64,000 bases of DNA from Massilia forsythiae (GTDB lineage Bacteria > Pseudomonadota > Gammaproteobacteria > Burkholderiales > Burkholderiaceae_D), in NCBI RefSeq assembly GCF_012849555.1, contig NZ_CP051685.1, forward strand, positions 310,001 through 374,000, in the 5' to 3' direction. The position numbers and the translations under genes are program-made. Positions 21,167 to 38,450 of this stretch are shown here, piece by piece; the stretch's first letter is position 1, and each line of letters opens with the position of its first letter. The notes beneath the pieces were generated by a model. The model worked only from the letters and a program-made list of their open reading frames with translations, searched no databases and was not told the DNA's origin.

Positions 21167-22843
21167 ATGAAAGAAAAGGCGTGCGGTTCGAACAGCGGCT
21201 GGCGCGATGCCCAGCCTACCAGGGCGCACGACGTGCGCGACGCCGCCGACCTGGCGCGCCTGCTCGACCGGCTCGACTGTGGCGACGACATCGTCGTGGT
21301 CTCGAACCGCGCCCCTTGGGTCCATTCGCACACCGGCGCCGGCATCGCCGCCGCGCGCCCGCCGGGCGGACTGGTGACGGCGCTGGAAGCGGTACTGTCG
21401 GCCCAGGGCGGCTGCTGGATCGCGCACGGCAGCGGCAGCGCCGACCGCGCCACCTGCGACGGCCAGGACCACGTGCTGCCCGAGCACCTGCCGGCATCCT
21501 ACCGCCTGCGCCGGCTATGGCTGTCCGACGCGGAGGTCGACGGCTACTATCACGGCCTGGCCAACGAAGCACTGTGGCCGCTGTGCCACCGCGCCAGCGT
21601 GGAACCGGTGTTCCGCGCGTCCGACTGGGACTGCTACCGCCGGGTGAACCGCCGCTTCGCCGACGCCGTGGTGGCGGAGGCGCGCAGCGCGCGGCCGCTG
21701 GTGCTGGTCCAGGATTACCACCTGGCGCTGGTGCCGCGCATGGTGCGCGAACGCCTGCCGGACGCGGTCATCGTCACGTTCTGGCACATCCCTTTTCCGG
21801 AACCGCAATCGCTGGCGCGCCTGCCCTGGCGCGATGCCCTGGTGGATGGGCTGTTGTGCAGCACCGTGGTCGGCCTGCAGACCGCCGCCGACCTGGCCCA
21901 CTTCAGCGCCGCGCGCGCCGCGCGCGCGGGAGCGGCGGCGCTGTCATCGGCATCCGCGCGCATCATGCCGCATGCCGCCGCCGGCGCCTACCCGATCTCG
22001 ATCGCCTGGCCGGCGCCCGCCGTGGACGACGGCGCCGCCGCGCGCCGACGCATCGATGCGCGCTTCGGCGTGCCGGCGGCGGCGCGCCTGCTGCTCGGCG
22101 TCGACCGGCTCGACTACACCAAGGGCTTGCCTGAGCGCCTGCGCGCGTTCGAGCGCTTCCTGGAACGCCATCCGCACCAGGCCGGCCGGGTGACGCTGCT
22201 GCAGATCGCCGCCCCGGGGCGCGGCGCGGTGCCGGCGTACCAGCGCCTGGAGCGCGAGGTGCGTGCGCTGGCGGCGCGCATCAACGCGCGCTTCGGCGCT
22301 GCCGGCCGCCTGCCGGTGCTGCTGCACCTGGCCAGCGTGGATGCGGCCACGGTGCTCGACTGCTACCGCGCTTGCGACGCCTGCCTGGTGACCAGCCTGC
22401 ACGACGGCATGAACCTGGTGGCCAAGGAATTCGTGGCCGCGCGCGACGACCTGCGCGGCGCGCTGGTGCTGAGCCGCTTCGCCGGCGCCGCAGCGGAACT
22501 GGCGCACGCACTGCCGGTCGACCCGCGCGACATCGAGGCGACCGCCGCCGCGATCGGCGCCGCGCTGGCGATGCCGGCGCGCGAACAGGCGGCGCGCATG
22601 GCGGCGATGCGCGCGGTGGTGCGGCGCCATACCGTGTTCGGCTGGGCGGCGCGGCTGCTGGAAGACGGCGTGCGCGCCGCGTCCGCCGCGCGCCGTCAGG
22701 CCGCCTGCGCGCCGGCCTGCGCGCCGCTGCGCACCATGTCCGCGCCGCTGGCGGCGCCCGCGCTTGCCCTGTGCGCGCCGCCGGTGCCTGTGCCTGCGCT
22801 GTGCGCGCCACCGGCGCCGGCCGCGTTCGGCGCGCTCGCATGA
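21167..22843 (+). CDS. otsA: Trehalose-6-phosphate synthase
   Basis: A 558-residue GT20 enzyme transferring glucose from UDP-glucose to glucose-6-phosphate. Motifs in order: VVVSNRAPWVHSHTGAGIAA (UDP-glucose loop), LVQDYHLALVPRMVRE (182-196), GVDRLDYTKGLPERL (311-325) and TSLHDGMNLVAKEFVAAR (409-426). The last 60 residues are Ala/Pro/Cys-rich with ALCAPP repeats, a non-conserved tail. ATG 21167 is used; an in-frame GTG directly before it is equally possible. Its TGA overlaps the otsB ATG (ATGA), giving coupled translation. Trehalose is an osmo- and desiccation protectant. Confidence 0.95.
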   Translation: MKEKACGSNSGWRDAQPTRAHDVRDAADLARLLDRLDCGDDIVVVSNRAPWVHSHTGAGIAAARPPGGLVTALEAVLSAQGGCWIAHGSGSADRATCDGQDHVLPEHLPASYRLRRLWLSDAEVDGYYHGLANEALWPLCHRASVEPVFRASDWDCYRRVNRRFADAVVAEARSARPLVLVQDYHLALVPRMVRERLPDAVIVTFWHIPFPEPQSLARLPWRDALVDGLLCSTVVGLQTAADLAHFSAARAARAGAAALSSASARIMPHAAAGAYPISIAWPAPAVDDGAAARRRIDARFGVPAAARLLLGVDRLDYTKGLPERLRAFERFLERHPHQAGRVTLLQIAAPGRGAVPAYQRLEREVRALAARINARFGAAGRLPVLLHLASVDAATVLDCYRACDACLVTSLHDGMNLVAKEFVAARDDLRGALVLSRFAGAAAELAHALPVDPRDIEATAAAIGAALAMPAREQAARMAAMRAVVRRHTVFGWAARLLEDGVRAASAARRQAACAPACAPLRTMSAPLAAPALALCAPPVPVPALCAPPAPAAFGALA

Positions 22844-23640
22844 TCGGCCTGCTCTCCCCGGCCGGACGAGCCGCCCTCGCCGGCCTGCTGCGCGCCGACC
22901 CGCTGCTCGGCTTCGATTTCGACGGCACGCTGGCGCCGATCCGGCCGCGCCCGGACCAGGTGTGGATGGACGCCCGGCCAGCGGCCGCCTTCGCCGAACT
23001 GGCGCGGCGCCTGCCGGTCGCGGTGGTCACCGGCCGCGGCGTGGCCGACGTGCGCCCGCGATTGGCGGGCACGCCGCGCTGGGTGATCGGCAACCACGGC
23101 GCCGAGGGCATGCCGGGCGCCGATCCGGCCCGGCTGGCGGCGCAGGCCGCCGTATGCGCCGGCTGGCATGCCCAGCTCGGCGGCGTGAGCACTGCGCTCG
23201 GCGACGGCGTGGTGCTGGAAGACAAGCGCTACACGCTGTGCCTGCACTACCGCCAGACGCCCGACCACGAGGCCGCCCGGCGCGCGCTGGCGGCGCGCAT
23301 CGCTGCCCTGCAACCGGCGCCGGAGGTGGTGGGCGGCAAATGCGTGTTCAACCTGCTGCCGGCCGGCTCGGTCGACAAGTTCGGCGCGCTGCGCGAACTG
23401 GCGCGGCGCATGGGGACGGAGAATGTGTTCTTCATCGGCGACGACGAGAACGACGAGCTGGTGTTCCGGCGCGCGCCGCCTTCGTGGGTGACGGTGAAGG
23501 TGGGAGCGGACGGTCCGTCGGCGGCGCGTTTCGGCGTGCCGGACCAGGCCTCGGTGGCGGATTGCCTGGAACTGCTGCTCGCGTTGAGCGGCGAAGGGCT
23601 GCGCGACGAGCCGACTACGCGACTAATGCCCTTTGCGTGA
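22840..23640 (+). CDS. otsB: Trehalose-6-phosphate phosphatase
   Basis: A 266-residue HAD-superfamily phosphatase completing trehalose synthesis from trehalose-6-phosphate. HAD motif I is LLGFDFDGTLAPI with nucleophile D26 and D28, motif II is VAVVTGRG, the substrate segment is IGNHGAEG, the lysine region is GGKCVFNLLPAGSVDK, and motif IV is FFIGDDENDE. Four-base overlap with otsA. The order otsA-otsB is opposite to E. coli otsBA. It is followed by a palindromic repeat containing insertion sequences. Confidence 0.95.
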   Translation: MIGLLSPAGRAALAGLLRADPLLGFDFDGTLAPIRPRPDQVWMDARPAAAFAELARRLPVAVVTGRGVADVRPRLAGTPRWVIGNHGAEGMPGADPARLAAQAAVCAGWHAQLGGVSTALGDGVVLEDKRYTLCLHYRQTPDHEAARRALAARIAALQPAPEVVGGKCVFNLLPAGSVDKFGALRELARRMGTENVFFIGDDENDELVFRRAPPSWVTVKVGADGPSAARFGVPDQASVADCLELLLALSGEGLRDEPTTRLMPFA

Positions 23641-23775: not shown

Positions 23776-23806
23776 TGAAGTGACCTAAGAAAGTTGGACA
23801 GGGGGA

Positions 23807-24712
23807 TTATGCGGTCTTGGCGTGTGCTAGTCTATATTGAACAGGACTCATGCCGCCAAGGCCGATCCTGATCCGGTCTTGATTGTAATACTGCACGTAA
23901 TCCACGATGGTCTTCTTTAGGTCATCGATGCTGGCAAATTTGTGATTGTGGAAACACTCTGACTTCAAGATGCCGAAGAAGCTTTCCATGGACGCGTTGT
24001 CGTAGCAGTTACCTTTGTTGGACATGCTTTGCTCCATGCCGGCGTCGCTCAGCATCTTGCGGTATTGAGTCATCTGGTAATGCCAGCCCTGGTCCGAATG
24101 AAGCATTGGTTTTTCATTGATGCCCAGCTTTTGCTGTGCCTTCGTGAGCATTGAAGTTACCAGGGTGAACACTGGCCGTGTATCGAATGAATACGCAACG
24201 ATTTCCCCGTTAAACAAATCCTTGATTGGTGAGAAGTACAGCTTGTCTTGCCCTACTTTGAACTCGGTGACGTCAGTGACCCATTTCTGGTTAGGTTCGC
24301 CTGCAGTAAACTCCCGCTTGAGCACATTTGGCGCGACTATGCCTACTTGAACTTTATACGATTTATATCGTTTAACTCGTTGTGACGACTTCAATCCTTC
24401 TGCCTGCATCAGCCGTTGGACGGTATTGGCATGAATTTTTTTACCTGCCTGTACCAAGGCGCTTGCTACGCGGCGGTAGCCGTAACGCCCTTTGTGCGCA
24501 TCAAACGTCATCTTGATAAGCTGTTTGATGCCTTCGTGTCTATCTGGCCTTTGCCTGGCCTTGTCCCAATAGTAAAAATTGCTCTTGGGAAGATTGACGA
24601 TCTTGAGCAGGGTAACAATTGGGTATTTTTGCCTTAATTCATGCACTACCTGCGCTTTTTGGGCGCGGGCTGCTTTTGTGCTTGAGCTAAGGCTTGCAGC
24701 TTTTTTAGAACC
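23807..24712 (-). CDS. IS3-family transposase OrfB (DDE integrase), separated from orfA
   Basis: About 300 residues forming the complete DDE catalytic part of an IS150-type transposase. It includes an HTH_21-like region (HKGRYGYRRVASALVQAGKK) and the rve core with catalytic Asp in WVTDVTEF, Asp in LHSDQGWHYQ and Glu in NASMESFFGILKSE, and ends YRLAHAKTA. In this family OrfB is made only as an OrfAB fusion by -1 frameshifting. Here there is no own start codon, and the IS481 insertion cuts it from orfA 7 bp before the slippery site, so it is probably no longer expressed. The 5' limit is set at the junction. Confidence 0.85.
   Translation of the reverse strand, partial: GSKKAASLSSSTKAARAQKAQVVHELRQKYPIVTLLKIVNLPKSNFYYWDKARQRPDRHEGIKQLIKMTFDAHKGRYGYRRVASALVQAGKKIHANTVQRLMQAEGLKSSQRVKRYKSYKVQVGIVAPNVLKREFTAGEPNQKWVTDVTEFKVGQDKLYFSPIKDLFNGEIVAYSFDTRPVFTLVTSMLTKAQQKLGINEKPMLHSDQGWHYQMTQYRKMLSDAGMEQSMSNKGNCYDNASMESFFGILKSECFHNHKFASIDDLKKTIVDYVQYYNQDRIRIGLGGMSPVQYRLAHAKTA
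24700..24706 (-). other. A AAA AAG programmed frameshift site of the IS3 element
   Basis: On the minus strand the heptamer AAAAAAG sits where the orfA frame (reading VLKKLQALAQ) and the orfB frame (reading KKAASLSSS) overlap, exactly as in IS150/IS911-type elements. It is stranded downstream of the IS481 insertion. Confidence 0.75.
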
Positions 24713-24713
24713 T

Positions 24714-25694
24714 CTACCTGTCAAGACCCGCCTGGTTATACACGCGTTTCCTGAACAATTCGGGGCGTTTTTCGTGCCAGTCTTTGAGTGCTTGAACAGG
24801 TGTTTTATGGTCGAGGGCTCGCTGCGGAATGCAGTGGTTGTAAATCTTGACGTAATTACGCAGCGTCGATTCCAGTTCGGCGGCTGAGCCGAAACGTGTT
24901 TGATTGACGATGTCGCTGATACGGCCGTTGAAGCGCTCGACCATGCCATTGGTCTGCGGGTGACAAGGCGGAATAAGGCGGTGCTCGATGCCAAGCTGTT
25001 TGCACAGCCGGTCGAACGCGTGCGTGCCGCTGGGTTCCTTTTTCTTGCTGCCAGCGGTGAAGCGATCCGTGAACTGGCTGCCGTTGTCGGTCAGCAGCTT
25101 GATGATCTTGACGGGACAGGCCTGCTGCACCTTCGCCAGGAAATCGACGCTGCTGCTGTCGGTTTGGTCGGCGTACAGGCCGATGTAGACCCAGCGCGTG
25201 GCACGGTCGATGGCGACGAACAGGTAACGCCGTGACGTTTCGTCGGGCATTTGAGGCAGATACTTGATATCGATGTGTACGAAGCCTGGCTCGTAATCCT
25301 TGAAGGTCTTTTTCGTGACCGGCGCAGCGTTTTCCTGCTCGACCAGGTCGCGCAGGTCCGAGACCCCATAACGACGCAGGCAGCGTCCCAAACCAGCGCG
25401 GGAAACGGCAGGATTAACGAATTCACGCGTGATCGCCAGTAGGTCGTCGGTCGGTAACAGCAGCGTCTTGCGCAGCTCTACCACGATGAGTTCCTGTTCA
25501 GGTGAAAGTGTGGTGTACATCTTGACCGGAGCGTGCGACTTGTCTTCCGGCGAATCGCGGTTTTGCCACTTCCGGATAGTCTGGCGCGTAACGTTGTACA
25601 GCCTGGCCAGTTCGGCTTGCGGTAGCGTCGAGTTCCTAATTTCCTCGCGAATCAGGTGAGTAGTGCGGGCTTGGCTGTGCAGCGCTTGGGTCAT
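24714..25694 (-). CDS. IS481-family transposase
   Basis: A 326-residue transposase with an N-terminal helix-turn-helix (LPQAELARLYNVTRQTIRKW) and a DDE integrase core: GFVHIDIKYLPQMP, LLTDNGSQFTDRF and PQTNGMVERFNGR give the D, D and E. It is complete and looks intact. Its last Arg codon (AGG) and the TAG stop are built from the 6-bp target duplication, not from the IS itself: the frame runs off the end of the element. Transcribed leftward inside the IS3-family element. Confidence 0.9.
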   Translation of the reverse strand: MTQALHSQARTTHLIREEIRNSTLPQAELARLYNVTRQTIRKWQNRDSPEDKSHAPVKMYTTLSPEQELIVVELRKTLLLPTDDLLAITREFVNPAVSRAGLGRCLRRYGVSDLRDLVEQENAAPVTKKTFKDYEPGFVHIDIKYLPQMPDETSRRYLFVAIDRATRWVYIGLYADQTDSSSVDFLAKVQQACPVKIIKLLTDNGSQFTDRFTAGSKKKEPSGTHAFDRLCKQLGIEHRLIPPCHPQTNGMVERFNGRISDIVNQTRFGSAAELESTLRNYVKIYNHCIPQRALDHKTPVQALKDWHEKRPELFRKRVYNQAGLDR

Positions 25695-25798
25695 TGAATT
25701 GTCGGCGAAAGATCAGATTGAAACAGTGTACGCAAAACGTTCCTGGCCTTGAAGAGCGGCCAGCTACGGGTGGGTACATGATCCCACGAGTCTAAACA
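24719..25798 (-). mobile_element. IS481-like insertion sequence (1080 bp)
   Basis: The ends are TGTCAAGACCCG at the left and, inverted, TGTTTAGACTCG at the right. It is flanked by a 6-bp direct repeat TCTACC (24713-24718 and 25799-25804). Deleting the IS plus one copy rejoins orfA of the surrounding IS3 element in frame (MEVEVLKKLQ). It carries one intact transposase gene. Confidence 0.92.
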
Positions 25799-26247
25799 TC
25801 TACCTCCATACGCAAGTACTCGTTTTCCTTGAGCACCTCATCAAGCGTACGTTCGGCATCAGGTTTGGCGGCAGGTTTTTTCGTAGGTGCTTTCATTTGG
25901 CGAGCGTGATTGTGCGGCTTGGCCAATGCCTCCAAGCCACCGCTGCTATAGCGGCTCTCCCATATCCCAATACTGGTCGGGTTGCGAACATTGAAGATGG
26001 CTGCCGTCTGTTTCATCGACAATCCATTGTCCCACATGTACTGTAGTGCCGACAGCTTAAACTGGGCATCATAGCGCGTTACCTTGCGGCTGATTCCTTC
26101 CATCCCATGCAAACGATAAGCCGCTACCCATCGTTTGACCGATCCAATATTTACCTCGTGATGCGCCGACAAACGGCGGAAACCCATGGTACCGCTGAAG
26201 TACTCCAGCACTACCTTGTGCTTGAATTCGTCTAGATACTTGAACAT
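25792..26247 (-). pseudogene. IS3-family OrfA, C-terminally truncated by IS481 insertion
   Basis: 151 residues starting MFKYLDEFKHKVVLEYFSGT (ATG 26247, AAGGA upstream) with two helix-turn-helix segments (GFRRLSAHHEVNIGSVKRW and LSMKQTAAIFNVRN) that bind the element's ends. It then reads NEYLRMEVDV and stops within the inserted IS481 element. The original frame continued VLKKLQALAQAQK to the frameshift window, so about 20 residues of the leucine-zipper region are lost. Confidence 0.85.
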
Positions 26248-26301
26248 CTGATCCTTCGAAAGTTGAACGGTTTTCCTGTCCAACTTCCTTAGGGCAGTTC
26301 A

Positions 26302-26332: not shown

Positions 26333-27058
26333 TTACTGCGCCGCAGCCTGCCCCTGCTGCCCCTGCGCCTTCCCCGCCAGCACCGCCAACAACGTATCCC
26401 CGAACCCGCCGCGCGCGCGCGCGTCGGTGCGGGCGCTGGTGTAGACGCGCGGCTGCGCGCTCCAGGCGAAGCGCGCGCCGATGCGTTCCAGCGCCTTGAC
26501 CAGCAACACGTCCTCGTGGCAGGCCACCGCCTCGAAGCCGCCGGCCGCCTGGTAGGCCTCGGCGCTCACGCCCAGGTTGGCGCCGTGGATGTGGCGGTGG
26601 CCGTCGCGGTCCTGGTAGGTGTCGGCGAAGTGGGCGCGCAGCGCCTGGGCGTTGGCGGCGTGCGGCGACCAGTCGTCCACCGCCACCGAGCCGCACACCA
26701 CGTCTGCGCCCTGCGCCAGCTGCGCCACCAGCCAGCGCGGCGAGACGCGCGTATCGGCGTCGGTAAAGGCCAGCCAGCGTGCGCCCTGCGCCAGCAGGCG
26801 GCGTGCGCCGAGCGCACGCGCCACGCCGACCTGGCGCGCTGCGACCTCCTCCATGTCCAGCGCCATGCCGGCGGCGGCGAAGGCGGCCTGGTGGCGCGCC
26901 ACCACGGCGGCCGAGCCGTCGTCGCAGGCGTCGAGAACGACCTGCACGCATACTTTTTCGCCGTCCAGCAGCGGATGGCGGGCGGCGGCCAGCAGCGAGA
27001 CCAGGCAGGCGTCCAGGTTGCTTTCCTCGTTGTGGGCCGGGATGGCGATACCGATCAT
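26333..27058 (-). CDS. Family 2 glycosyltransferase
   Basis: A 241-residue GT-A fold enzyme. It begins MIGIAIPAHNEESNLDACLV, contains VVLDACDDGS and the DxD-type motif WLAFTDADTRVSPRWL, then GANLGVSAEAYQAAGGF and a CHEDVLLVKAL acceptor-loop segment. No membrane helices, so it likely acts in the cytosol on a soluble acceptor. ATG 27058 overlaps the methyltransferase stop (ATGA). Last gene of a four-gene operon with an acyl-CoA-dehydrogenase-like protein, a PIG-L deacetylase and a methyltransferase. Sugar donor and acceptor unknown. Confidence 0.88.
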   Translation of the reverse strand: MIGIAIPAHNEESNLDACLVSLLAAARHPLLDGEKVCVQVVLDACDDGSAAVVARHQAAFAAAGMALDMEEVAARQVGVARALGARRLLAQGARWLAFTDADTRVSPRWLVAQLAQGADVVCGSVAVDDWSPHAANAQALRAHFADTYQDRDGHRHIHGANLGVSAEAYQAAGGFEAVACHEDVLLVKALERIGARFAWSAQPRVYTSARTDARARGGFGDTLLAVLAGKAQGQQGQAAAQ

Positions 27059-27699
27059 GTCGGGGTTCCTTTCGATGCGTTGCTTGAAGAATCGGAAGCG
27101 ACCTGCCAGGCTTCCAGCAGGAAGTCGGCGTCGCGGTGATGCAGGGTGCGCACCAGGCCGGGCAAGCGGCCGGCCAGCGCGTGCACCGTCGCGGTCGGGG
27201 TGATGTGGTCGTCGAAGCCGTGCAGGTAATGGCACAGCACCAGTTCGCCGTCGTCGTCGAGGCTGGCGCGCGCCCGTTGCAGCATGTCGTCCAGCGCGGC
27301 GGCGTCCAGGTAGTAGGCGAATTCGCTGATGACGACCAGGTCGAAGCGGGTGTCCGCCGGCCACTCGTCCGGCAGGCCCAGCTGCTCGAAACGCACATGC
27401 CCGGGCGCCGTGGATGCGGGGTCGGCGCCTTCCTGCAGCCGCCGCCGCGCCGCCGCCAGCGCGCTGGGCGAGCCGTCGCTGACCAGCAGGCGCTCGCAGC
27501 GCAGCGCCAGCGCGGCGCTCATCTCGCCGTTGCCGCAGCCGGGCTCGTAGACGCTGCGGTAGTGCGGCCTGGCCAGGCTGGCCAGCAGCACGGCGCGCTT
27601 GCGCCGCTCGTACCAGGCGCCGCGCACGTTCCACGGATCCTCGTTGGCGGCGTACAGCGCCTCGAAATGGGCCTTGCGCTCAGGCGGTTGGGCAGTCAT
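27055..27699 (-). CDS. SAM-dependent methyltransferase (NodS-like) of the PIG-L cluster
   Basis: A 214-residue class I methyltransferase. It begins [20 protein letters not shown] and has DPWNVRGAWYERRKRAVLLA, a segment typical of NodS-like/PIG-L-linked methyltransferases. SAM motif I is VYEPGCGNGEMSAALA, then LLVSDGSPSALAAARRR, and DLVVISEFAYYLDAAALDDM is the motif IV region. Start ATG 27699 overlaps the PIG-L gene end by 20 bp and its stop overlaps the glycosyltransferase start. NodS N-methylates a chitooligosaccharide freed of its acetyl group; pairing with a deacetylase here suggests an analogous deacetylate-then-methylate step, which is inference. Confidence 0.85.
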   Translation of the reverse strand: MTAQPPERKAHFEALYAANEDPWNVRGAWYERRKRAVLLASLARPHYRSVYEPGCGNGEMSAALALRCERLLVSDGSPSALAAARRRLQEGADPASTAPGHVRFEQLGLPDEWPADTRFDLVVISEFAYYLDAAALDDMLQRARASLDDDGELVLCHYLHGFDDHITPTATVHALAGRLPGLVRTLHHRDADFLLEAWQVASDSSSNASKGTPT

Positions 27700-28468
27700 G
27701 GAAATACACCTCGAATGGATTGAACGCGCGCGCCAGGGCATGCGCGGGAAGGATGGGCGCGGCGCCGGTGCTGGCGTCCGGCGATATCTGGCTGTGGAAA
27801 CAGGCCATCGCCTCGCGCTTGCTTTGCACCGCTTGCGGCGGCAGCGCCAGTTTCACGGCTTGTGCCAGCGGCATGGCGCCGTCGCCCGGCGCGCTCCAGT
27901 GCCAGCCCCACACCGGCGCTTCCAGCACGCGCGCGCCGCATGCCGCCGCCGCGGCGGCGCAGGCGCGCGCGGTGGCTTCGTGGTCGGGATGGCCGTCGTA
28001 GCGCCAGGTGGTGACCACCACGTCGCCGGCCCGCACGATGGCGCGCAGGCGTCCGACCAGGTCGGCCTCGGCGGCGCGCACGCCGCCGTCGGGGATGCCG
28101 AGCCGGACGATTTGGGGTGCGGCGATGCCCAGGCAGCGCAGCGCCGCCTCGGTCTCGCCCGGCCGGGTGGCCAGCAGGCGCGCGCGCGGCCAGTCGGGCG
28201 AGTTCTCGTGGCTGCGCTCGCCGTCGGTGACCGCCACCACCACGACCGCCGGCGCGGCGCCGCCGCGCTGCGCCAGCAGGTGCAGCAGCCCGCCGCAGGA
28301 CAGGATCTCATCGTCCGGATGCGGCGCCACCACCAGCAGGCGCGCGCCGGGCGGCACCAGCGCATCCACGCCGGCGGCCGGCAGCGCGGCCACGCCGGCA
28401 TCGGCGCGCCAGTCCTGCGCGGAAGTGCCGGTGCCGACGATGCTGCGGTCGCGGTTCACAGCGTCCAT
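27680..28468 (-). CDS. PIG-L (LmbE) family deacetylase
   Basis: A 262-residue zinc deacetylase. The metal motif PHPDDE appears in [20 protein letters not shown] (residues about 45-64) and the distant ligand region is [19 protein letters not shown]. Family members remove N-acetyl groups from GlcNAc-type conjugates. Start ATG 28468 overlaps the preceding gene by 13 bp. It belongs to the four-gene cluster and is the likely first modifying enzyme acting on an N-acetylated sugar. The preceding gene, by contrast, encodes an acyl-CoA-dehydrogenase-like oxidoreductase. Confidence 0.9.
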
Positions 28469-29535
28469 GGCGCCCTCCTTACGTTTGCCACGTCGTCCGC
28501 CGCATCGTCCGCCGGCCCTTGCCCGACCACGCGCCCGACCGTTTCCTGGTCGCGTTCGGCGTGGCTCTGGCGCAGGAACACCGGCAGGTCGGCGAACAGG
28601 CGCGCCATCGCCGGGTCCTTGCACATCGGCCCCGGCCCCAGTGCGCGCCCCACCGCCGCCAGCGCCGTCGTGGCCGCCGCTTCCACCGACAGGCGCACCG
28701 ACACCGCCGCCAGCATCGCATTGTCGTGCGGCGCGGCGTCGATGGCGGCGGCGCTCTCGCGCAGCAGCGCGGCGCTGCCCTGCAGCGCCACCGTCACCTC
28801 GCCCAGCTGCGCCAGCCGGTGCGCGTCGGCCTGGCCCGCCAGGCGGCGGCGCAGCGCCTCCGCCAGCGCGGTCGCCGCGCCGTACCAGACCGCCGCCACG
28901 CCGGCGCCGCCGTGCCAGAAGCCGGGCCGGCGCACATAAAAGCCGGACTCGCCCAGCGGCGTGGCGCGGGCGCCGTCGAACTGCACGTCGACGCTGCCGG
29001 AGCCCTGCATGCCGATGGCGTTCCAGCCGTCGTCCGTCACGCGCACGCCCGGCTGGCGCATCTCGACCGCGGCCAGCATCGCCTCGCCGGCCGCGTTCCA
29101 GCAGCTGAGCACCGCATGCGACATGTGCTGCGCGCCCGAGCACCAGGCCTTGCGCCCGGCCAGCACGAATCCGCCATCGGGGCCGGCCTGCAGCAGCACG
29201 CGCGCGTCGGGCGGTTCAGCGCACCAGGTGCCCCAGGTCGAGCCGGGCCGCGCCAGGCCATCCATGCCGGCCTCGGCCAGGATGGCCAGCGCATCGGTAT
29301 GGCCTTCGAACAGCTTGGCCAGGCTGAGATCACGGGCGCCGACGGCGGCCAGCGCGCGCCAGCGTTCGAGGGTGCGCCCTTGGCCCGGCAGCGGCAGGCG
29401 ATCCGCGCCGGCCTCTACCAGCCGGCGCAGGGCGGCGCCCGCATCCAGGCCGCGCAGGCCGTGCAAGTGGCCCTGCAGCCGGCTGCAGGCATCGGCACCA
29501 TCGGAGGAGGCGAAGGGAAGCAGGTCGTTAGGCAT
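28456..29535 (-). CDS. Acyl-CoA-dehydrogenase-like flavoprotein of the PIG-L cluster
   Basis: A 359-residue protein with acyl-CoA dehydrogenase fold. The middle-domain FAD motif is visible as [20 protein letters not shown], preceded by [15 protein letters not shown]; the helical C-domain follows. The usual C-terminal EGT motif next to FAD is not seen; instead there is [18 protein letters not shown], so the catalytic base and substrate may differ from beta-oxidation enzymes. It is shorter than canonical family members. Start ATG 29535. First gene of the operon; a 300-bp non-coding stretch lies upstream, before htpX, which is divergently oriented. Confidence 0.82.
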
Positions 29536-31934: not shown

Positions 31935-32858
31935 ATGATCGACTATCTCATCGGCGTCGACGGCGGCGGCACCGGCACCAGGGTGCGCCTGGCGCGCGGC
32001 GACGGCGCCGGCGCCTGGCAGGAACTGGCGCAAGGCGCCGGCGGGCCTTCCGGCCTCGGGCTGGGCGTGGAACGCGCCTGGACGGCGGTACGCGGCGCCG
32101 TGCAGGCCGCCTTCGATGCGGCCGGGCTGGCACAGCCGGCGCCGCGGCAAGTGGCCATCGGCCTCGGCCTGGCAGGCGTGCACAACCGCCAGTGGGCGGC
32201 GGATTTCGTCGCCGGCGATCCGGGCTATGCCGCCCTGGTCCTGGAAACCGATGCCTTCACCACCCTGATGGGAGCCCACGACGGCGCTCCCGGCGCCATC
32301 GTCGCCATCGGCACCGGCAGCGTCGGCGAAGCCCTGCTGGCCGACGGCGCCCGGCGCGAAGTCGGCGGCTGGGGCTTCCCGGCCGGCGACGAGGCCGGCG
32401 GCGGCTGGATCGGGCTGCGCGCGGTCAACCACCTGCAGCAGGTGCTGGACGGGCGCCGCCCCGCCAGCCCGTTCGCGCATGACCTGACGGCCGCCTGCGG
32501 CGGCGGCAACGGCTGCCGCGACACGGTGCAGGCCTGGCTAGCGCAAGCCAACCAGACCGCCTACGCCGGCCTGGCGCCCTTGGTGCTGCGCCACGCCGAC
32601 GACCCGGTGGCGCACACGATCCTGCTGGAAGCCGGCCGTGAAGCGGCGAACATCGCGCGCGCGCTCGACCCGCAGGGCGCGCTGCCGCTGGCCCTGTGCG
32701 GCAGCCTCGGCGCGGCGCTGCGCCCCTGGCTGCCGCCCGCCCTGGCGGCGCGCGCCACGCCGCCGCGCGGCGATTCGGCGCAGGGTGCCCTGCGCATGGC
32801 CGCGCTCTACCTGACCCGGCACGCCAGCGCGCCCGGCCGGCCGGAGGCACGCCAGTGA
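31935..32858 (+). CDS. N-acetylglucosamine kinase, BadF/BadG family
   Basis: A 307-residue ASKHA-fold kinase. Phosphate-1 motif IGVDGGGTGTRVRLA at the N-terminus, ALGLGLAGVHN-like segment, phosphate-2 AIVAIGTGSVGEALL, adenosine region WGFPAGDEAGGGWIGLRAV and LALCGSLGAALRPWL near the end. In this operon context (followed by nagA and nagZ) it most likely phosphorylates GlcNAc freed by NagZ to GlcNAc-6-P. Its stop overlaps the nagA start (GTGA). Start ATG 31935. The exact hexosamine cannot be fixed from sequence. Confidence 0.88.
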   Translation: MIDYLIGVDGGGTGTRVRLARGDGAGAWQELAQGAGGPSGLGLGVERAWTAVRGAVQAAFDAAGLAQPAPRQVAIGLGLAGVHNRQWAADFVAGDPGYAALVLETDAFTTLMGAHDGAPGAIVAIGTGSVGEALLADGARREVGGWGFPAGDEAGGGWIGLRAVNHLQQVLDGRRPASPFAHDLTAACGGGNGCRDTVQAWLAQANQTAYAGLAPLVLRHADDPVAHTILLEAGREAANIARALDPQGALPLALCGSLGAALRPWLPPALAARATPPRGDSAQGALRMAALYLTRHASAPGRPEARQ

Positions 32859-33973
32859 ACCACGCCACCTTGACCGGCAACATCCTGACACCGGACGGCT
32901 GGCTGCACGGCGCGCTGCGCCATGGCGCCGGCACCATCGCGACGATCGAGGGCGCGCCCGCCGATCCGTCCGCCAACGGCGACGACTACATCCTGCCCGG
33001 CTTCATCGACCTGCACGTGCACGGCGGCGCCGGACGCGACATGATGGAAGGCGGCGACGCCGCGCACGCCATCGCGCGCCTGCACGCGCGCCACGGCACC
33101 ACCAGCCTGCTGGCCACCACCATGACCGCGCCGCTGCCCGACATCGAACGTGCGCTGGACGCCATCGGGTCCGCCGTCCGCGCGCGCGGCCGCGGCGAAG
33201 CGCGCATCCTGGGCGTGCACCTGGAAGGCCCGTACATCAATTCCGGCAAGCTGGGGGCCCAGCCGCCGTTCGCACGCGAAGCATCCCTCGGCGAAGTCGA
33301 GCGCCTGGGCGCGCGCGCGCCGCTGCGCCTGATCACGGTGGCGCCCGAACTCGAAGGCCATTTGGCGCTGGTGCGCGCGCTGGCGGACGCCGGCATCCGC
33401 GTGCAGGTCGGCCACACCACCGGCTCCTACGAGGACGGCGTGCGCGCGCTGGAGCACGGCGCGGCCGGCTTCACCCACCTGTTCAACGCCATGCCGGGCC
33501 TGCACCACCGCGACCCCGGCATGGTCGGCGCCGCGCTGGCGCATGCCGAATACGCCGAGATCATCCCCGACCTGCTGCACGTGCATCCGGGCGCGATCAA
33601 GGTGGCGCTGCGCGCGATTCCCCACCTGTACTGCGTGACCGATTCCACCGCCGCCGCCGGCATGCCCGACGGCGACTACATGCTGGGCCGCCAGGTCGTG
33701 CACAAGTGCATGGGCGGCGTGCGCCTGGCGGACGGTACCCTGGCCGGCAGCACCCTCACCATGGACCAGGCGCTGCGCAACCTGGTGGCGATCGGCCTGG
33801 ACCTGGCCGACGCCGCGCGCCGCGTCTCGACCAATGCCGCCGACTACCTGGGCGAGACCCGCCGCGGGCGCCTGGCGCCGGGCTGCCACGCCGACCTGGT
33901 GGTGCTGGACCGCGACCTGCAGCTGAAAGCCGTCTATGTCGAAGGAGAAGCCTGTGCAGTCGCCGCTGACTGA
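32855..33973 (+). CDS. nagA: N-acetylglucosamine-6-phosphate deacetylase
   Basis: A 372-residue amidohydrolase converting GlcNAc-6-P to glucosamine-6-P and acetate. The motif HVHGG (54-58) in GFIDLHVHGGAGRDM, the metal Glu in LGVHLEGPYIN, His in VQVGHTTGSY and THLFNAMPGLHHRDPG, and catalytic Asp in YCVTDSTAAAGMPDG are all seen. The start is GTG 32855, overlapping the kinase stop, and the end overlaps nagZ by 20 bp. The three genes form a compact amino-sugar recycling operon. nagB (deaminase) is not present here. Confidence 0.95.
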   Translation: MNHATLTGNILTPDGWLHGALRHGAGTIATIEGAPADPSANGDDYILPGFIDLHVHGGAGRDMMEGGDAAHAIARLHARHGTTSLLATTMTAPLPDIERALDAIGSAVRARGRGEARILGVHLEGPYINSGKLGAQPPFAREASLGEVERLGARAPLRLITVAPELEGHLALVRALADAGIRVQVGHTTGSYEDGVRALEHGAAGFTHLFNAMPGLHHRDPGMVGAALAHAEYAEIIPDLLHVHPGAIKVALRAIPHLYCVTDSTAAAGMPDGDYMLGRQVVHKCMGGVRLADGTLAGSTLTMDQALRNLVAIGLDLADAARRVSTNAADYLGETRRGRLAPGCHADLVVLDRDLQLKAVYVEGEACAVAAD

Positions 33974-35489
33974 GGCCCCGTCCACCCGGCCTGGCGCCAC
34001 GGTCGCGCCGGACGACGCGCGCCGCCTGGCCGGCCAGCTGGTGATGATCCGCCTGGCCGGCACCGCGCTGGACGAAGACAGTGCCGCCTTCATCCGCGCC
34101 AACCGCATCCGCGGCGCCTGCCTGTTCCGCCAGAACATGGTCGATGCCGGCCAGCTGGGCGAGCTCACCGGCGCCCTGCGCGCGGCGATGGGAGAGAATG
34201 CCCTGATCGCCCTCGACCAGGAAGGCGGCGCCGTGGTGCGCTCGCTGTGGGTGCCGCCGCCGCCGTCGGCGATGGCGCTGGGCGCGGCCGACGATCCGGC
34301 CCTGGCGCGTGACGTCGGCGCCGCGGTGGCGCGCGCGGTGAAGTCGATGGGCTTCAACTGGAATTTCGCGCCGGTGCTGGACCTGAACAACAACCCCTTG
34401 AATCCGGTGATCGCCGAGCGCTCGTTCGGCGCCGATCCGCAGCGCGCCGCCGCCATCGCGCTGGCCTGGATGGCGGGTAGCCAAGCCGAGGGCGTGGCCT
34501 GCTGCGTCAAGCATTTCCCCGGCCACGGCGACACCCACGTCGATTCGCACCGCGACCTGCCCACCGTCGACAAGCCCCTCGACGAACTGGAACGCTTCGA
34601 GTTCGCGCCCTTCCGCACGGCCGCGCCGCACGCGCCGGCGGTGATGACGGCGCACATCGTGTACCCGGCGCTGGACCCGCACAGCCCGGCCACGATGTCG
34701 CGCGCGATCCTGCACGACCTGCTGCGCGCCGGCTGGGACTACCACGGCGTGATCATCACCGACGGCATGGACATGCATGCCATCGCGCACCGCTACGGCG
34801 CCGGCCAGGCCGCCCTGAACGCACTGCTGGCGGGCGCCGACATGGTGATGGCGATCGGCAGCCGCGCCACCCAGGAAGAAACGCTGGACGCCATCGCCGG
34901 AGCCATCGCCGACGGCCGCCTGCCGCTGCACGAGGTGCGGGCGCGCCTGGATCGGCTGGACCGGTTGGCCGCGACCTACCCGGCGCTGGCCGCGCCCTAC
35001 GCCACCGAGGCCGCCGACCGCGCCCTGATGGCGCGCGCCTGGCAGCGCGGCTTGACGGCTTACCGCGCACCGCGCCGTCCGCCGCCCGGGGCCAGGCTGC
35101 GCCTGGTGGCGCGCCAGGACGTGGTCAGCGACGGCGTGTCCGAAGCCGGCGTGCCGGCGGCGCGCATCGCCGCGGCGCTGGGCGAGCGGTACGACGTCGA
35201 CCTGGTCACCTTCGCCGACGCCGAACGCTTCGACTGGAATGCGCTGCCGGCGGATGGCCGCTTCACGCTGCTGGCCTCGACCTCACGGCGCCGCTACGGC
35301 CCGCATGCGCGCGCCACCTGGCAGCCGGACCTGCACCTGGCCCTGTGGAATCCGTACCAGGCGCTCGACTTCGACGCGCCGGCGCTGCTGACCTTCGGTT
35401 TCGCGCCGCCGGCGCTGGAAGCCGTGAACGCCTGGCTGGCCGGCGACATCGAAGCGCAAGGACATTGCCCGGTGCCCGGCTTCGCATGA
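33954..35489 (+). CDS. nagZ: Beta-N-acetylhexosaminidase, GH3 (NagZ-type)
   Basis: A 511-residue GH3 glycosidase that removes terminal GlcNAc from muropeptides or chitooligosaccharides. IALDQEGGAV is the conserved early motif, CCVKHFPGHGDTHVDSH (from about residue 183) is the NagZ catalytic His/Asp loop, and GVIITDGMDMHAI carries the nucleophile-region Asp. It is longer than short NagZ (about 340 aa) owing to a C-terminal GH3 alpha/beta-sandwich-like domain (about 360-511). GTG 33954 is preferred since GAAGGAG lies 6 nt upstream; an ATG at 33936 is in frame. No signal peptide, so cytosolic. Confidence 0.9.
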   Translation: MQSPLTEAPSTRPGATVAPDDARRLAGQLVMIRLAGTALDEDSAAFIRANRIRGACLFRQNMVDAGQLGELTGALRAAMGENALIALDQEGGAVVRSLWVPPPPSAMALGAADDPALARDVGAAVARAVKSMGFNWNFAPVLDLNNNPLNPVIAERSFGADPQRAAAIALAWMAGSQAEGVACCVKHFPGHGDTHVDSHRDLPTVDKPLDELERFEFAPFRTAAPHAPAVMTAHIVYPALDPHSPATMSRAILHDLLRAGWDYHGVIITDGMDMHAIAHRYGAGQAALNALLAGADMVMAIGSRATQEETLDAIAGAIADGRLPLHEVRARLDRLDRLAATYPALAAPYATEAADRALMARAWQRGLTAYRAPRRPPPGARLRLVARQDVVSDGVSEAGVPAARIAAALGERYDVDLVTFADAERFDWNALPADGRFTLLASTSRRRYGPHARATWQPDLHLALWNPYQALDFDAPALLTFGFAPPALEAVNAWLAGDIEAQGHCPVPGFA

Positions 35490-35711
35490 GCAAACACCGC
35501 GCGCGCAAGCGACGACGCGCGGTAACGCATTGTAACGACGGCACCGCCGACCCGGCCGCTGCGGCACAATGCCCCTGCCCGATTCACGCAGGGTGCGCGC
35601 ATGCGCGCCCGATCGCGTACTTTGTGGGACAATGCACGTTTTGTTCGAGTTGGCAAATTTGCCACTGTTCAATTTAATCGTCATACGCCGTTACCAAGAG
35701 AAGGATACTCC

Positions 35712-37019
35712 ATGTCCCAATTCCGTCTTGCCCGCCTTGCCCTGATGTTTGCCGCGATCGGCCTGAATGCCGCGCCGGCCCTGATGCACGGCGCGTCCGC
35801 GCAAAACAATGCCAAGCCGGCCGCACCGGCGGCGGCGCCCCAGGATTCGGTCCGTCCCGACCTGTTCAAGCTGCTCGATCCGGCGCAGATCAAGCCGCTG
35901 ATGGATGCCAAGAACTACACCGAAGTCCAGAACCGCGTGACCCAGGCCGAAGCCTTCCCGGACAAGACCCCGTACGAAATCTACGTGGTCAACCGCATGA
36001 AGCTGTCGCTGGCCAGCGCCACCAACAACGACGCCATGCAGACGCAGGCGCTGGAGGCGGTCATCGCCTCGGGCAAGCTGGCGCCGGCCGACCAGGCCAG
36101 CTTCACGCAAGCCTTGGCCCAGTCCTACTTCAACGCCAAGAACTATCCGAAAGCAATCGAGATGTTCAAGCAGATGCAGGCCAACGGCAACAACACCGAC
36201 GCCGTCAACGCGGCCCTGATCCGCGCCTACTACTTCAGCGGCGACTACGCCACCGCGGTCAAGATGCAGGGCCCGGTGCTGGAAGCCCAGCAAAAGGCCG
36301 GCAAGACCCCGAGCGCCGAAGACCTGCGCCTGTACGCCTCGGCCGCCAACAAGACCAAGGACGACGCCGCCTACCTGCGCGGCCTGGAACAGCTGGCGTC
36401 GTACTACCCGACCGACGATTACTGGGCCGACCTGATCAGCCGCGGCATCGTGCGCAAGGCGGGCTTCAGCGACGCCAACATCACCAACGTGCTGCGCCTG
36501 CAGTTTGCCGCCAGCAAGGCGATGTCGCCGGAAGCGTATACCGAACTGGCCGAACTGGCCCTGAAGGACGGCTTCCCGACCGAAGCCAAGAAGGTGGTCG
36601 ATGCCGGCTTCGCCGCGGGCGTGCTGGGCACCGGCAGCGCCGCCGCCCAGCACCGCCAGCTGCGCGACCGCGCCAACAAGGAAGCCGCCACCGACGCCAA
36701 GAACATCGCCGCCGGCGAAGCCTCGGCGGCCAAGGCCAAGAGCGGCATCGGCCTGGTCAACCTGGGCTGGGCCTATGTCACGATGGACCAGTACGACAAG
36801 GGCATCGGCTTCATCGAGCAGGGTATCGCCAAGGGCGGCCTGAAGTCGCCGGACGAAGCCAAGCTGCGCCTGGGCATGGCCTACGCGCGCGCCGGCCGCA
36901 AGGACCAAGCCATCAAGACCTTCGAGACCGTCAAGGCCGGCGGCGGCTTGGCCGACACCGCCCACTACTGGGTGCTGCTGGAAAACCACCCGGCCGGCGG
37001 CGCCACCGCGGCCAAGTAA
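35712..37019 (+). CDS. Exported TPR-repeat protein
   Basis: A 435-residue protein with a signal peptide (about 1-30, FRLARLALMFAAIGLNAAPA, then HGASAQ) and a mature region made of helical hairpins. Clear TPR-like units are TQALAQSYFNAKNYPKAIEM, LIRAYYFSGDYATAVKM, NLGWAYVTMDQYDKGIGF and RLGMAYARAGRKDQAIKTFE. It probably scaffolds periplasmic proteins; no partner is evident. ATG 35712 with GAGAAGGA upstream. Ends just before a strong terminator, so it is its own unit after the nag operon. Confidence 0.82.
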   Translation: MSQFRLARLALMFAAIGLNAAPALMHGASAQNNAKPAAPAAAPQDSVRPDLFKLLDPAQIKPLMDAKNYTEVQNRVTQAEAFPDKTPYEIYVVNRMKLSLASATNNDAMQTQALEAVIASGKLAPADQASFTQALAQSYFNAKNYPKAIEMFKQMQANGNNTDAVNAALIRAYYFSGDYATAVKMQGPVLEAQQKAGKTPSAEDLRLYASAANKTKDDAAYLRGLEQLASYYPTDDYWADLISRGIVRKAGFSDANITNVLRLQFAASKAMSPEAYTELAELALKDGFPTEAKKVVDAGFAAGVLGTGSAAAQHRQLRDRANKEAATDAKNIAAGEASAAKAKSGIGLVNLGWAYVTMDQYDKGIGFIEQGIAKGGLKSPDEAKLRLGMAYARAGRKDQAIKTFETVKAGGGLADTAHYWVLLENHPAGGATAAK

Positions 37020-37054
37020 GCACTGCAGCGTCCGCATACCGGCGGACGAGCATC

Positions 37055-37091
37055 AAAGCGGCACGGGCTTCGCGGCCCGCGCCGCTTTTTT
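37055..37091 (+). terminator. Rho-independent terminator after TPR gene
   Basis: Stem AAAGCGGC/GCCGCTTT enclosing an inner GC-rich hairpin (ACGGGC TTCG CGGCCCGC), followed by a T run. Located 36 bp past the stop codon. Confidence 0.85.
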
Positions 37092-37192
37092 CATGCGCAT
37101 TTCTGGAATGCTTCTGTTAAGTGCCGTACCGGCCAGACAGCCGCGGCCTTTCATAATCGGGCTATCAGCAACCGCACCGTTGAAAGGCTGTC

Positions 37193-38260
37193 ATGACCAT
37201 CGTACGCAAGGGCCAGGCGCCCGCAAAACTCGACCGCAACGAATTCCACCTGCGCTTCATGCGCAAGTTCTACGATCCCGCCTACGGGGAGGTCGGCAAG
37301 GAGCTGGCCGCCGTCGAGGAAGTGGCGTGGAAAACCTACGTCGAATCGCACAAGGCCCCGGTCACGGTCAAGGCCGGCCCCGGCTTCGCCGATCCGGACT
37401 ACGATCTGTCGGTCGAGTGGAAAGAGGCGCACGACCGCCTGCTGGCCGCCGAAGCGCGGCAAAAGGACCCGGCTACCCGCCGCCGCATCCTCCTGATCAA
37501 CGCCTCGGCGCGCAACGACGGCAGCTGCCCGAGCGAGATCTCCAAGACCTGGCGCCTGGCGCGCCTGTGCGAAGACTTGCTGCAGGGCGAAGGATTCGAG
37601 ACCGACCTGCTCGACCTCTCTCTGCTGACCTCGGACTACGAACGCCGCATCCACCCGTGCAAGGCTTGCGTGTCGACCGCGATGCCGCTATGCCACTGGC
37701 CGTGCAGCTGCTATCCGAACCATTCGCTGAACCAGGACAACGACTGGATGAACGAGATCTACGAGCGCTGGGTATCGGCGCACGGCGTGATCATCCTGAC
37801 CCCGACCTACTGGTACCAGACCCCGGCGGTACTGAAACTGATGATCGACCGCCTGGTATGCGCCGACGGCGGCAACCCGGACCCGAGCTCGACCCACGGC
37901 AAGAAGCCGGAAGAAGCCAAGGAACTGGAAAAGGACTGGGACTATCCGAAGCACCTGGCCGGACGCGCCTATGGCCTGGTGGTGCACGGCGACGTGGCCG
38001 GCATCGAACCGACGCGGCGCTCGCTGTCCGACTGGCTCGACTGGATGGGTTTCATCGACGCCGGCTTCCAGTCGCAGCTGGACCGCTACGTCGGCTACTA
38101 CGAATCCTACGCCGAAAGCCACGACACGCTCGACCGCGACACCGGGTTCCAGGAAGAAGTGCGCAACGTGGCGCGCGCGGTGGCGAATACAGTTCGGCTG
38201 ATCCAGGACGGCAAGATGGTGCGGCCGGACGCCAAGCTGAAGAATCCGCGCCAGAAGTGA
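37193..38260 (+). CDS. NAD(P)H-dependent flavodoxin-fold oxidoreductase with Cys cluster
   Basis: A 355-residue protein. Residues about 98-330 form a flavodoxin-like NADPH-dependent FMN reductase domain: RRILLINASARNDGSCPSEI (phosphate-binding loop), VSAHGVIILTPTYWYQTPAV (FMN loop) and AYGLVVHGDVAGIEPTRRSL. The N-terminal 97 residues are an unusual charged extension. A cysteine cluster, HPCKACVSTAMPLCHWPCSC, lies just before the second FMN loop; such Cys-containing iron-flavoprotein-like or quinone/azo-reductase relatives exist, and metal or Fe-S binding is possible but unproven. ATG 37193. Monocistronic. Confidence 0.8.
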   Translation: MTIVRKGQAPAKLDRNEFHLRFMRKFYDPAYGEVGKELAAVEEVAWKTYVESHKAPVTVKAGPGFADPDYDLSVEWKEAHDRLLAAEARQKDPATRRRILLINASARNDGSCPSEISKTWRLARLCEDLLQGEGFETDLLDLSLLTSDYERRIHPCKACVSTAMPLCHWPCSCYPNHSLNQDNDWMNEIYERWVSAHGVIILTPTYWYQTPAVLKLMIDRLVCADGGNPDPSSTHGKKPEEAKELEKDWDYPKHLAGRAYGLVVHGDVAGIEPTRRSLSDWLDWMGFIDAGFQSQLDRYVGYYESYAESHDTLDRDTGFQEEVRNVARAVANTVRLIQDGKMVRPDAKLKNPRQK

Positions 38261-38273
38261 GCCATACGGATGC

Positions 38274-38374
38274 CGTCGTTCCCGCGCAGGCGGGGACCCA
38301 TACATAGCGACCATGGATACTCGGTATGGGGTGAAGAATGCCAGTGGCATTCTTCCCCCTGCGCGGGGACGACG
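38274..38374. repeat. Intergenic double-palindrome repeat, copy 3
   Basis: Left arm CGTCGTTCCCGCG, right arm CGCGGGGACGACG. The centre holds a 10-bp perfect hairpin (GAAGAATGCC/GGCATTCTTC, 3-nt loop) different from the centres of the other copies. Confidence 0.85.
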
Positions 38375-38450
38375 TGCTCACTTACGCTCCCCGCGGCCAA
38401 GCGGTCTTTTTTTGGTATCATCGGCCATCCTTTCCAACCCGTGCCGCCGC

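Follow-up and report, generated by a model that had tools for sequence, protein, structure and literature searches.

The DNA considered here is a stretch of 64,000 nucleotides from the 6.37 Mb genome of Massilia forsythiae (contig NZ_CP051685.1, positions 310,001 to 374,000), called the window below. On its minus strand lie four overlapping genes for an acyl-CoA dehydrogenase (ACAD)-like flavoprotein, a PIG-L (LmbE) family N-deacetylase, a NodS-like S-adenosylmethionine (SAM) methyltransferase and a GT2 glycosyltransferase. We propose, with a probability of a little under one half (about 0.47), that these genes are one conserved biosynthetic cassette of a bacterial stress programme, functionally tied to trehalose, and that they make a small amino-sugar conjugate serving as a protectant. 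All the parts belong to known enzyme families, here combined in a stress-solute-like biosynthetic unit. This sugar-modifying unit of four enzymes adjoins trehalose genes in several beta- and gammaproteobacterial lineages, and it also occurs in another class and in Actinomycetota records. If the cassette makes a protectant, it would be an overlooked part of the chemistry by which bacteria survive drying and osmotic stress.

Conservation of the four-gene cassette

All four reading frames are open, and the neighbouring genes overlap by 13, 20 and 4 bp. An earlier reading made from the sequence alone (the sequence-only reading) had described the same four overlapping genes, and re-reading the open reading frames (ORFs) reproduced its coordinates exactly to the base.

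The ACAD-like protein, whose nearest named matches are from Massilia, was compared with 398 sampled genomes of the phylum. At most five candidates were scored per genome, so the number of matches is a lower bound: at least 49 genomes, including the window's own, had a match at E ≤ 0.001. Of the 48 matches outside the window, the 28 best (E ≤ 1.4e-17) had their neighbourhoods examined and the remaining 20 (E ≥ 7.7e-9) were set aside; one of these weaker matches (L073) was looked at and held a weak ACAD match only. A cassette was called complete when all four families were found within 4.5 kb of the ACAD-like gene, and presence was judged by homology matches, the simple gene caller having missed or misplaced some genes (for example ACAD in L012 and L088, PIG-L in L063 and L085). 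By this measure 23 of the 28 loci were complete, with ACAD and the methyltransferase present in 28, PIG-L in 25 and GT2 in 24.

The order of the genes differed among the 23 complete loci. The order of the window (ACAD, PIG-L, methyltransferase, GT2) was seen in 13 and GT2-ACAD-PIG-L-methyltransferase in six, GT2 was on the opposite strand in three, and PIG-L came last in one (L058), where it sits after GT2 and matches weakly at 20 bits (Pfam PIG-L 5.3e-9). As the order is permuted and the content constant, the pattern speaks for shared function over mere inheritance. All four families were also present in plasmid-collection records from Pandoraea, Comamonas, Acinetobacter, Legionella lytica, Kitasatospora and Embleya, and the last two, both Actinomycetota plasmid records, have the gene order of the window. 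Conservation of the gene set beyond Oxalobacteraceae, which the sequence-only reading had suggested looking for, was thus seen in 23 of 28 phylum genomes and in two Actinomycetota records, and the gene order is not confined to this strain. In the bacterial family of the window the ACAD-like protein (E ≤ 1e-30) was found in 28 of 145 genomes and is therefore an accessory trait; nine of 11 further loci from this family had all four genes in the window's order.

Some loci carried additional genes. In L047 to L050 (G237, G286, G308 and G342, all of one genus) a second PIG-L gene follows the cassette; in L047 it stands directly after the methyltransferase and no GT2 was found. Extra glycosyltransferases (GT4-like, GT28-like with a weak Pfam score, and a second GT2) were seen in L064, L068 to L070 and L072, as if a larger product were made there. 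L064 belongs to the class of the window, whereas L068 to L070 and L072 lie outside it, presumably in the Alphaproteobacteria.

Linkage to trehalose genes

Trehalose is a textbook stress sugar, and in several lineages the cassette adjoins the trehalose genes otsA/otsB or treY, which supports a linkage between them. The most compact arrangement was found on plasmids of Comamonas endophytica and C. antarctica, which have one tight run of otsA, ACAD, PIG-L, methyltransferase, GT2 and otsB. On both plasmids otsA and the ACAD-like gene overlap by 4 bp, and otsB either starts 4 bp past GT2 or overlaps it by 17 bp. The genes otsB, otsA and the cassette (L062), or otsA and the cassette (L051), follow each other on one strand in two further loci. 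On an Acinetobacter soli plasmid otsA is near the cassette on the other strand. A Legionella lytica plasmid (L080:2064-5979) encodes a beta-phosphoglucomutase/OtsB fusion and then a GH65 protein directly before PIG-L, methyltransferase, GT2 and ACAD; this pair looks like a disaccharide-phosphorylase module.

In the 29 cassette genomes of the phylum sample, OtsA (PF00982) was detected at 27 places in 22 genomes and TreY (TIGR02401, above cut-off) at 23 places. OtsA was within 10 kb of the cassette in three genomes (0.12 expected, Poisson p 3e-4) and TreY in six (0.11 expected, Poisson p 3e-9), giving nine of 29 genomes with one or the other, which is above chance. These Poisson values, like the Fisher value below, treat related genomes as independent and the p values are too small; four of the six TreY cases are from one genus, and the effective count is six genera rather than nine genomes. 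Throughout L047 to L050 the distance between TreY and the ACAD gene is about 2.6 kb.

The sequence-only reading had overlooked that otsA and otsB, and with them a trehalose and stress context, are present in the window itself. The two genes point toward the cassette, with an insertion sequence between them and GT2. Eight further genomes of the window's genus have otsA adjoining GT2, two of them together with otsB: in L082, which has no insertion sequence, the otsB and GT2 ORFs converge and share 6 bp at their ends, and in L099 otsB and then otsA stand beside GT2. The remaining six (L083, L098, L100, L101, L102 and L103) have otsA alone next to GT2, tail to tail. The same pairing in L010 and L011 is on the contigs of L083 and L103 and was counted once.

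A particular isoform of otsA goes with the cassette in this genus, to which Massilia aurea belongs. Among 62 genomes, the ACAD-like protein (E ≤ 1e-30) was present in 16 and the OtsA of the window's type (at least 66% identity) in 12, with both in 10 (Fisher p 4e-6, an optimistic value for related genomes). The two genes are neighbours in nine of these 10 genomes, in the window across the insertion sequence, and lie on different contigs in the tenth (G587). Two loci with this otsA type and no ACAD match (L096 and L097) were missing all four cassette genes in the 17-18 kb examined. Several of the same genomes also encode OtsA of other types elsewhere, with about 51% and 34% identity to that of the window. 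As many as three types occur together, in G508: besides the type that goes with the cassette, this genome encodes two OtsA proteins of about 51% and about 34-44% identity to it, each in a frame of about 750 amino acids or more.

The window's OtsA is a divergent isoform: it scores 413.6 bits against TIGR02400, below the cut-off of 564.85, and lies above the cut-off of PF00982. The main OtsA motifs are kept in the printed alignments and OtsB scores above its cut-off, so ordinary trehalose is the expected product of the pair.

The ACAD-like flavoprotein

In Pfam the flavoprotein matches the ACAD middle domain only (PF02770), at 33.8 bits against a cut-off of 33.3. Its four NCBIfam matches are SfnB, DszC, HsaA and p-hydroxyphenylacetate (HPA) hydroxylase, all far below their cut-offs. 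When a profile of the family was compared with the PDB, the five best of 59 matches were DszC, MsuC and TdsC (1.2e-15 to 9e-15), and in the printed alignment the protein and DszC have the features GxKxxxSGA and WxAxGM in common. The top single-sequence match in the PDB was the nitrososynthase DnmZ. An AlphaFold model (predicted local distance difference test, pLDDT, 76) gave ACAD-fold matches throughout in Foldseek, the four best being the nitrososynthases DnmZ and KijD3 (E about 1e-11, TM 0.66-0.75).

Acyl-CoA dehydrogenases typically have a C-terminal EGT/catalytic glutamate region. As the sequence-only reading had remarked, "EGT" is absent from the protein sequence and RQSHAERD is present; a catalytic base elsewhere is possible. 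Within this motif R322 is conserved in 22 of 23 aligned members, Q323 in all 23, and H325 and D329 in 18, and several family members have it partly substituted. Near-invariant residues include E77, H79, S133, G134, W171, R281 and Q323, of which H79, S133 and W171 may be the counterparts of DszC active-site residues, judged by the printed alignment rather than a superposition. Judged from these comparisons the protein resembles group D flavin monooxygenases more than acyl-CoA dehydrogenases. The earlier description of a non-standard ACAD was right about the missing EGT and fell short of the profile and fold matches; the structural comparison that it had suggested gave the ACAD fold, with nitrososynthases rather than acyl-CoA dehydrogenases as the closest matches.

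We consider it improbable that the protein is a genuine dehydrogenase of acyl-CoA or acyl-ACP and that the cassette makes an unsaturated, deacetylated and methylated glycolipid. The fold itself is that of an ACAD, annotators name the protein acyl-CoA dehydrogenase, and the sixth profile match in the PDB is an annotated acyl-CoA dehydrogenase (7.4e-14). In Foldseek the gap between nitrososynthases and acyl-CoA dehydrogenases is about one order of magnitude only. In L082 (925-5432) and L105 (76-6403) genes for 3-hydroxyacyl-CoA dehydrogenase, thiolase and enoyl-CoA hydratase share the strand of the cassette and lie just upstream of it, and in C. antarctica genes for acyl-CoA synthetase and thioesterase lie downstream. 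L105, however, has a full acyl-CoA dehydrogenase with all domains in the beta-oxidation run itself, and the barely sufficient match to a single Pfam domain, the lack of EGT, the NCBIfam matches and the five best profile matches all argue against this assignment. A flavin monooxygenase appears the more likely identity, which suggests correcting the annotation of this cassette member as "acyl-CoA dehydrogenase".

Flavin-related genes were noticed near some cassettes. In one Massilia a gene with a flavin-reductase domain (PF01613; L009:5152-5829) is divergent from the cassette and could encode a partner of the flavoprotein, in L013 an FMN-binding PNPOx-like gene precedes the cassette, and in L106 a flavin reductase was seen by eye about 5 kb away. 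The idea of a recurring flavin reductase partner was dropped, given the divergent position in L009, the distance in L106 and no fixed neighbour elsewhere by eye.

PIG-L, methyltransferase and GT2

The families that the sequence-only reading had named for the other three proteins were upheld by Pfam and NCBIfam matches. PIG-L matches PF02585 at 1.1e-25 (91 bits against a cut-off of 28), and the residues of its HPDDE and HPDH motifs (H50, D52, D53, E54, D158, H160, D162 and H163) are invariant in 22 of 22 aligned sequences. Its closest solved relatives are TT1542 and diacetylchitobiose deacetylases, with N-acetylglucosamine (GlcNAc)-malate deacetylase lower down. The methyltransferase matches PF13649 (1.2e-10) and, second best, PF05401 NodS (3.8e-10). 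NodS is also its best NCBIfam match, at 51 bits against an equivalog cut-off of 300, and the protein is NodS-like only; solved relatives are 4isc (3e-37), titled just "Methyltransferase", and NodS 3ofj. GT2 matches PF00535 at 8.7e-11 and its TDAD and ED motifs are retained across 16 aligned sequences. The fold and profile matches of GT2 were dolichyl-phosphate mannose synthase, GtrB, mannosylglycerate synthase, PcManGT and TarS. Naming a product from GT2 was tried and given up, as these relatives are generic GT-A enzymes and the model reached a pLDDT of 67.6 only.

A deacetylase next to a methyltransferase also brings to mind low-molecular-weight thiols such as (N-methyl-)bacillithiol or mycothiol, and BshB1 is the best NCBIfam match of PIG-L. 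Its 52 bits are far below the BshB1 cut-off of 182.5, as are the scores for BshB2 (37 against 195.25) and MshB (23 against 224.35), and we rejected a bacillithiol or mycothiol assignment. The glycosyltransferases BshA and MshA are moreover of family GT4, in contrast to the GT2 of the cassette, which leaves a thiol pathway very unlikely.

Published expression data

The four families were found in an Acinetobacter baumannii record in the order of the genes ACICU_02432-02435, which are listed in Table 2 of PMC5660220 as glycosyltransferase, SAM methyltransferase, LmbE protein and acyl-CoA dehydrogenase-related. We equated these locus tags with the cassette by product and order, not by sequence. 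In that table the four genes are one operon ("e") and were 31 to 62 fold down-regulated by RNA-seq in two colistin-dependent A. baumannii mutants. The same table has otsA (-27 and -50 fold) and otsB (-12 and -35 fold), which lie at a distant locus, as well as a catalase; in A. baumannii, expression of the cassette seems to run parallel to that of otsA/otsB. There are 33 down-regulated genes in the table in all, and the entries therefore point to shared regulation and are no proof of one pathway. ACICU_02431 and ACICU_02436, hypothetical and flanking by locus number, are given there as 43-53 and 138-227 fold down, and ACICU_02436 as very highly expressed.

Among the matches listed, PMC5660220 was the only paper found naming the cassette genes, in the part considered here, and no functional description of the cassette was found, which does not prove its absence. 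The cassette terms searched for were not found in the main text of three A. baumannii papers (PMC6181384, PMC13232832, PMC10325922), nor was there anything on it in the passages of PMC12322963 consulted. In Sphingomonas melonis, trehalose and glycosyltransferase genes are EcfG-dependent according to the portion of PMC6599016 consulted, and these genes could not be matched to the cassette.

Proposed pathway

An amino-sugar pathway is a reasonable reading of the four-gene set. GT2 would attach a hexosamine to a small acceptor, the donor probably being of the UDP-GlcNAc type, and so form a hexosaminide. PIG-L would strip the N-acetyl group from this hexosaminide and the NodS-like enzyme would N-methylate the freed amine. 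By analogy with nitrososynthases, the flavoprotein may then oxygenate the product, most likely at or beside that nitrogen. This would give a small, soluble amino-sugar conjugate with a modified nitrogen, putatively protecting against osmotic, desiccation or oxidative stress. For the acceptor, trehalose or a trehalose-derived sugar is favoured where otsAB are in the run, because some lineages have otsA/otsB integrated with the cassette genes and another has an OtsA isoform that goes with them. In the most specific version of this reading, which we hold to be rather unlikely, the cassette would make a stress metabolite that is widely shared and has not been described before: a glycoside of trehalose, or of a trehalose-type disaccharide, whose amino sugar is N-methylated and/or N-oxygenated. 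On this equally doubtful reading the cassette of some lineages would have an OtsA to itself, and both environmental and hospital bacteria would use the metabolite in addition to plain trehalose. With respect to the sequence-only reading as a whole, the conserved unit and the PIG-L and methyltransferase families stand, while the role of the flavoprotein has changed and the otsA/otsB context has been added.

Together with the acyl-CoA dehydrogenase matches and beta-oxidation neighbours described above, several results weigh against the proposed pathway. Five of the 28 loci are incomplete, with GT2 missing in L045 and L047, PIG-L in L052 and both in L064 and L067. In Cupriavidus basilensis three cassette genes stand in a row, and the PIG-L gene closest to them is on the other strand, some 3 kb ahead of the ACAD gene. 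In two of the 11 further family loci (L084 and L086) the ACAD-like gene is without PIG-L, methyltransferase and GT2 in 18 kb, and may have a use of its own there or be a remnant. That the genes are made together, as the sequence-only reading had it, agrees with the overlaps and the wide co-conservation, but the lone ACAD-like genes show that they are not inseparable. Neither OtsA nor TreY, the two enzymes searched for, was within 10 kb in 20 of the 29 cassette genomes. Of 27 further family genomes, 24 had OtsA, and it lay within 10 kb of the cassette in just three (G414 and G508 of the window's genus, and G484). Of the 16 genomes in the genus that have the cassette, six are without the window-type otsA, so the two are not always paired. 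As OtsA looks ordinary, trehalose may simply be made in parallel. Finally, the EcfG-type motif GGAAC-N15-18-CGTT, which belongs to a general-stress regulon of the other class, was not enriched upstream of the cassette in nine loci, with four sites against 4.6 expected; the site in L070 is well placed, about 50 bp before the ACAD start, and that in L071 is about 200 bp before the called start.

The main rival, possible though less probable than our proposal, is that the cassette is only co-regulated with trehalose synthesis inside stress islands, as part of a stress regulon, and makes an unrelated product such as an envelope glycolipid or a surface glycan modification. The many cassettes far from OtsA and TreY fit this explanation, as do annotated neighbours that include generic stress genes (catalase, GlgE, PRC-barrel, ferritin-like and CsbD), and the extra glycosyltransferases in the versions from another class would suit a larger glycan. 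It is less easily reconciled with Comamonas, where otsA overlaps ACAD and otsB abuts or overlaps GT2, and with the distinct otsA isoform that tracks the cassette in the window's genus though other OtsA copies exist elsewhere in several genomes. In addition, no recurring membrane or export gene was noticed among the gene starts viewed by eye, no dedicated search having been made.

Other features of the window

The insertion sequence between otsB and GT2 is no part of the pathway and merely parts otsAB from the cassette. It has three transposase-like ORFs, two with separate rve domains, and is possibly one element nested in another. Also near the cassette, at window positions 31935-39191, are genes for a BadF-type ATPase, an amidohydrolase, a GH3 hydrolase, an FMN reductase and a GntR/UTRA regulator, which resemble a GlcNAc-utilisation set.

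Table 1. Positions in the window of the cassette, the trehalose genes and the intervening insertion sequence.
Feature	Position	Strand	Remarks
ACAD-like flavoprotein, cassette gene 1	29535-28456	minus	359 aa; resembles group D flavin monooxygenases
PIG-L (LmbE) family N-deacetylase	28468-27680	minus	262 aa; motifs intact
Class I SAM methyltransferase, NodS-like	27699-27055	minus	214 aa; relative of structure 4isc
GT2 glycosyltransferase	27058-26333	minus	241 aa; TDAD and ED motifs
otsA, trehalose-6-phosphate synthase	21167-22843	plus	start inferred from the relative in L082 (gene caller: 21050)
otsB, trehalose-6-phosphate phosphatase	22840-23640	plus	TIGR00685 102.2 bits, cut-off 68.05
Insertion sequence between otsB and GT2	23781-26296		candidate ends with 18/20 inverted match; rve and helix-turn-helix (HTH) transposase ORFs

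Comparison with known systems

A close counterpart is A. baumannii ACICU_02432-02435, with the same four annotated functions in the same order and listed as one operon, which is known from the expression-table entry in PMC5660220 and was matched by product and order rather than sequence.

The flavoprotein has the DszC/TdsC/MsuC group D monooxygenases as its five best profile matches and shares GxKxxxSGA and WxAxGM features with DszC in the printed alignment, whereas no sulfur-metabolism context was noticed around the cassette and RQSHAERD is partly substituted in several cassette members. The amino-sugar nitrososynthases DnmZ, KijD3 and ORF36 are alike in that DnmZ and KijD3 are the best fold matches and DnmZ the top sequence match in the PDB. 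The ACAD-like protein differs from them in being shorter and about 20% identical, and no deoxysugar pathway was noticed alongside the cassette, no search having been aimed at one.

OtsA-OtsB trehalose synthesis is adjacent to the cassette or in the same run in several lineages, with the window's OtsB above the cut-off for trehalose-6-phosphate phosphatase. Compared with standard OtsA, the OtsA of the window is divergent and below the TIGR02400 cut-off, with the main motifs kept.

The Nod factor core of nodC, nodB and nodS differs in several of its parts. NodB is a polysaccharide deacetylase, in place of which the cassette has a PIG-L fold; there is no NodA, the GT2 has 241 amino acids, the methyltransferase reaches 51 bits against the NodS equivalog cut-off of 300, and a flavoprotein is added. 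In both systems a GT2 enzyme, an N-deacetylation and a NodS-type N-methylation would in principle provide the same three chemical steps.

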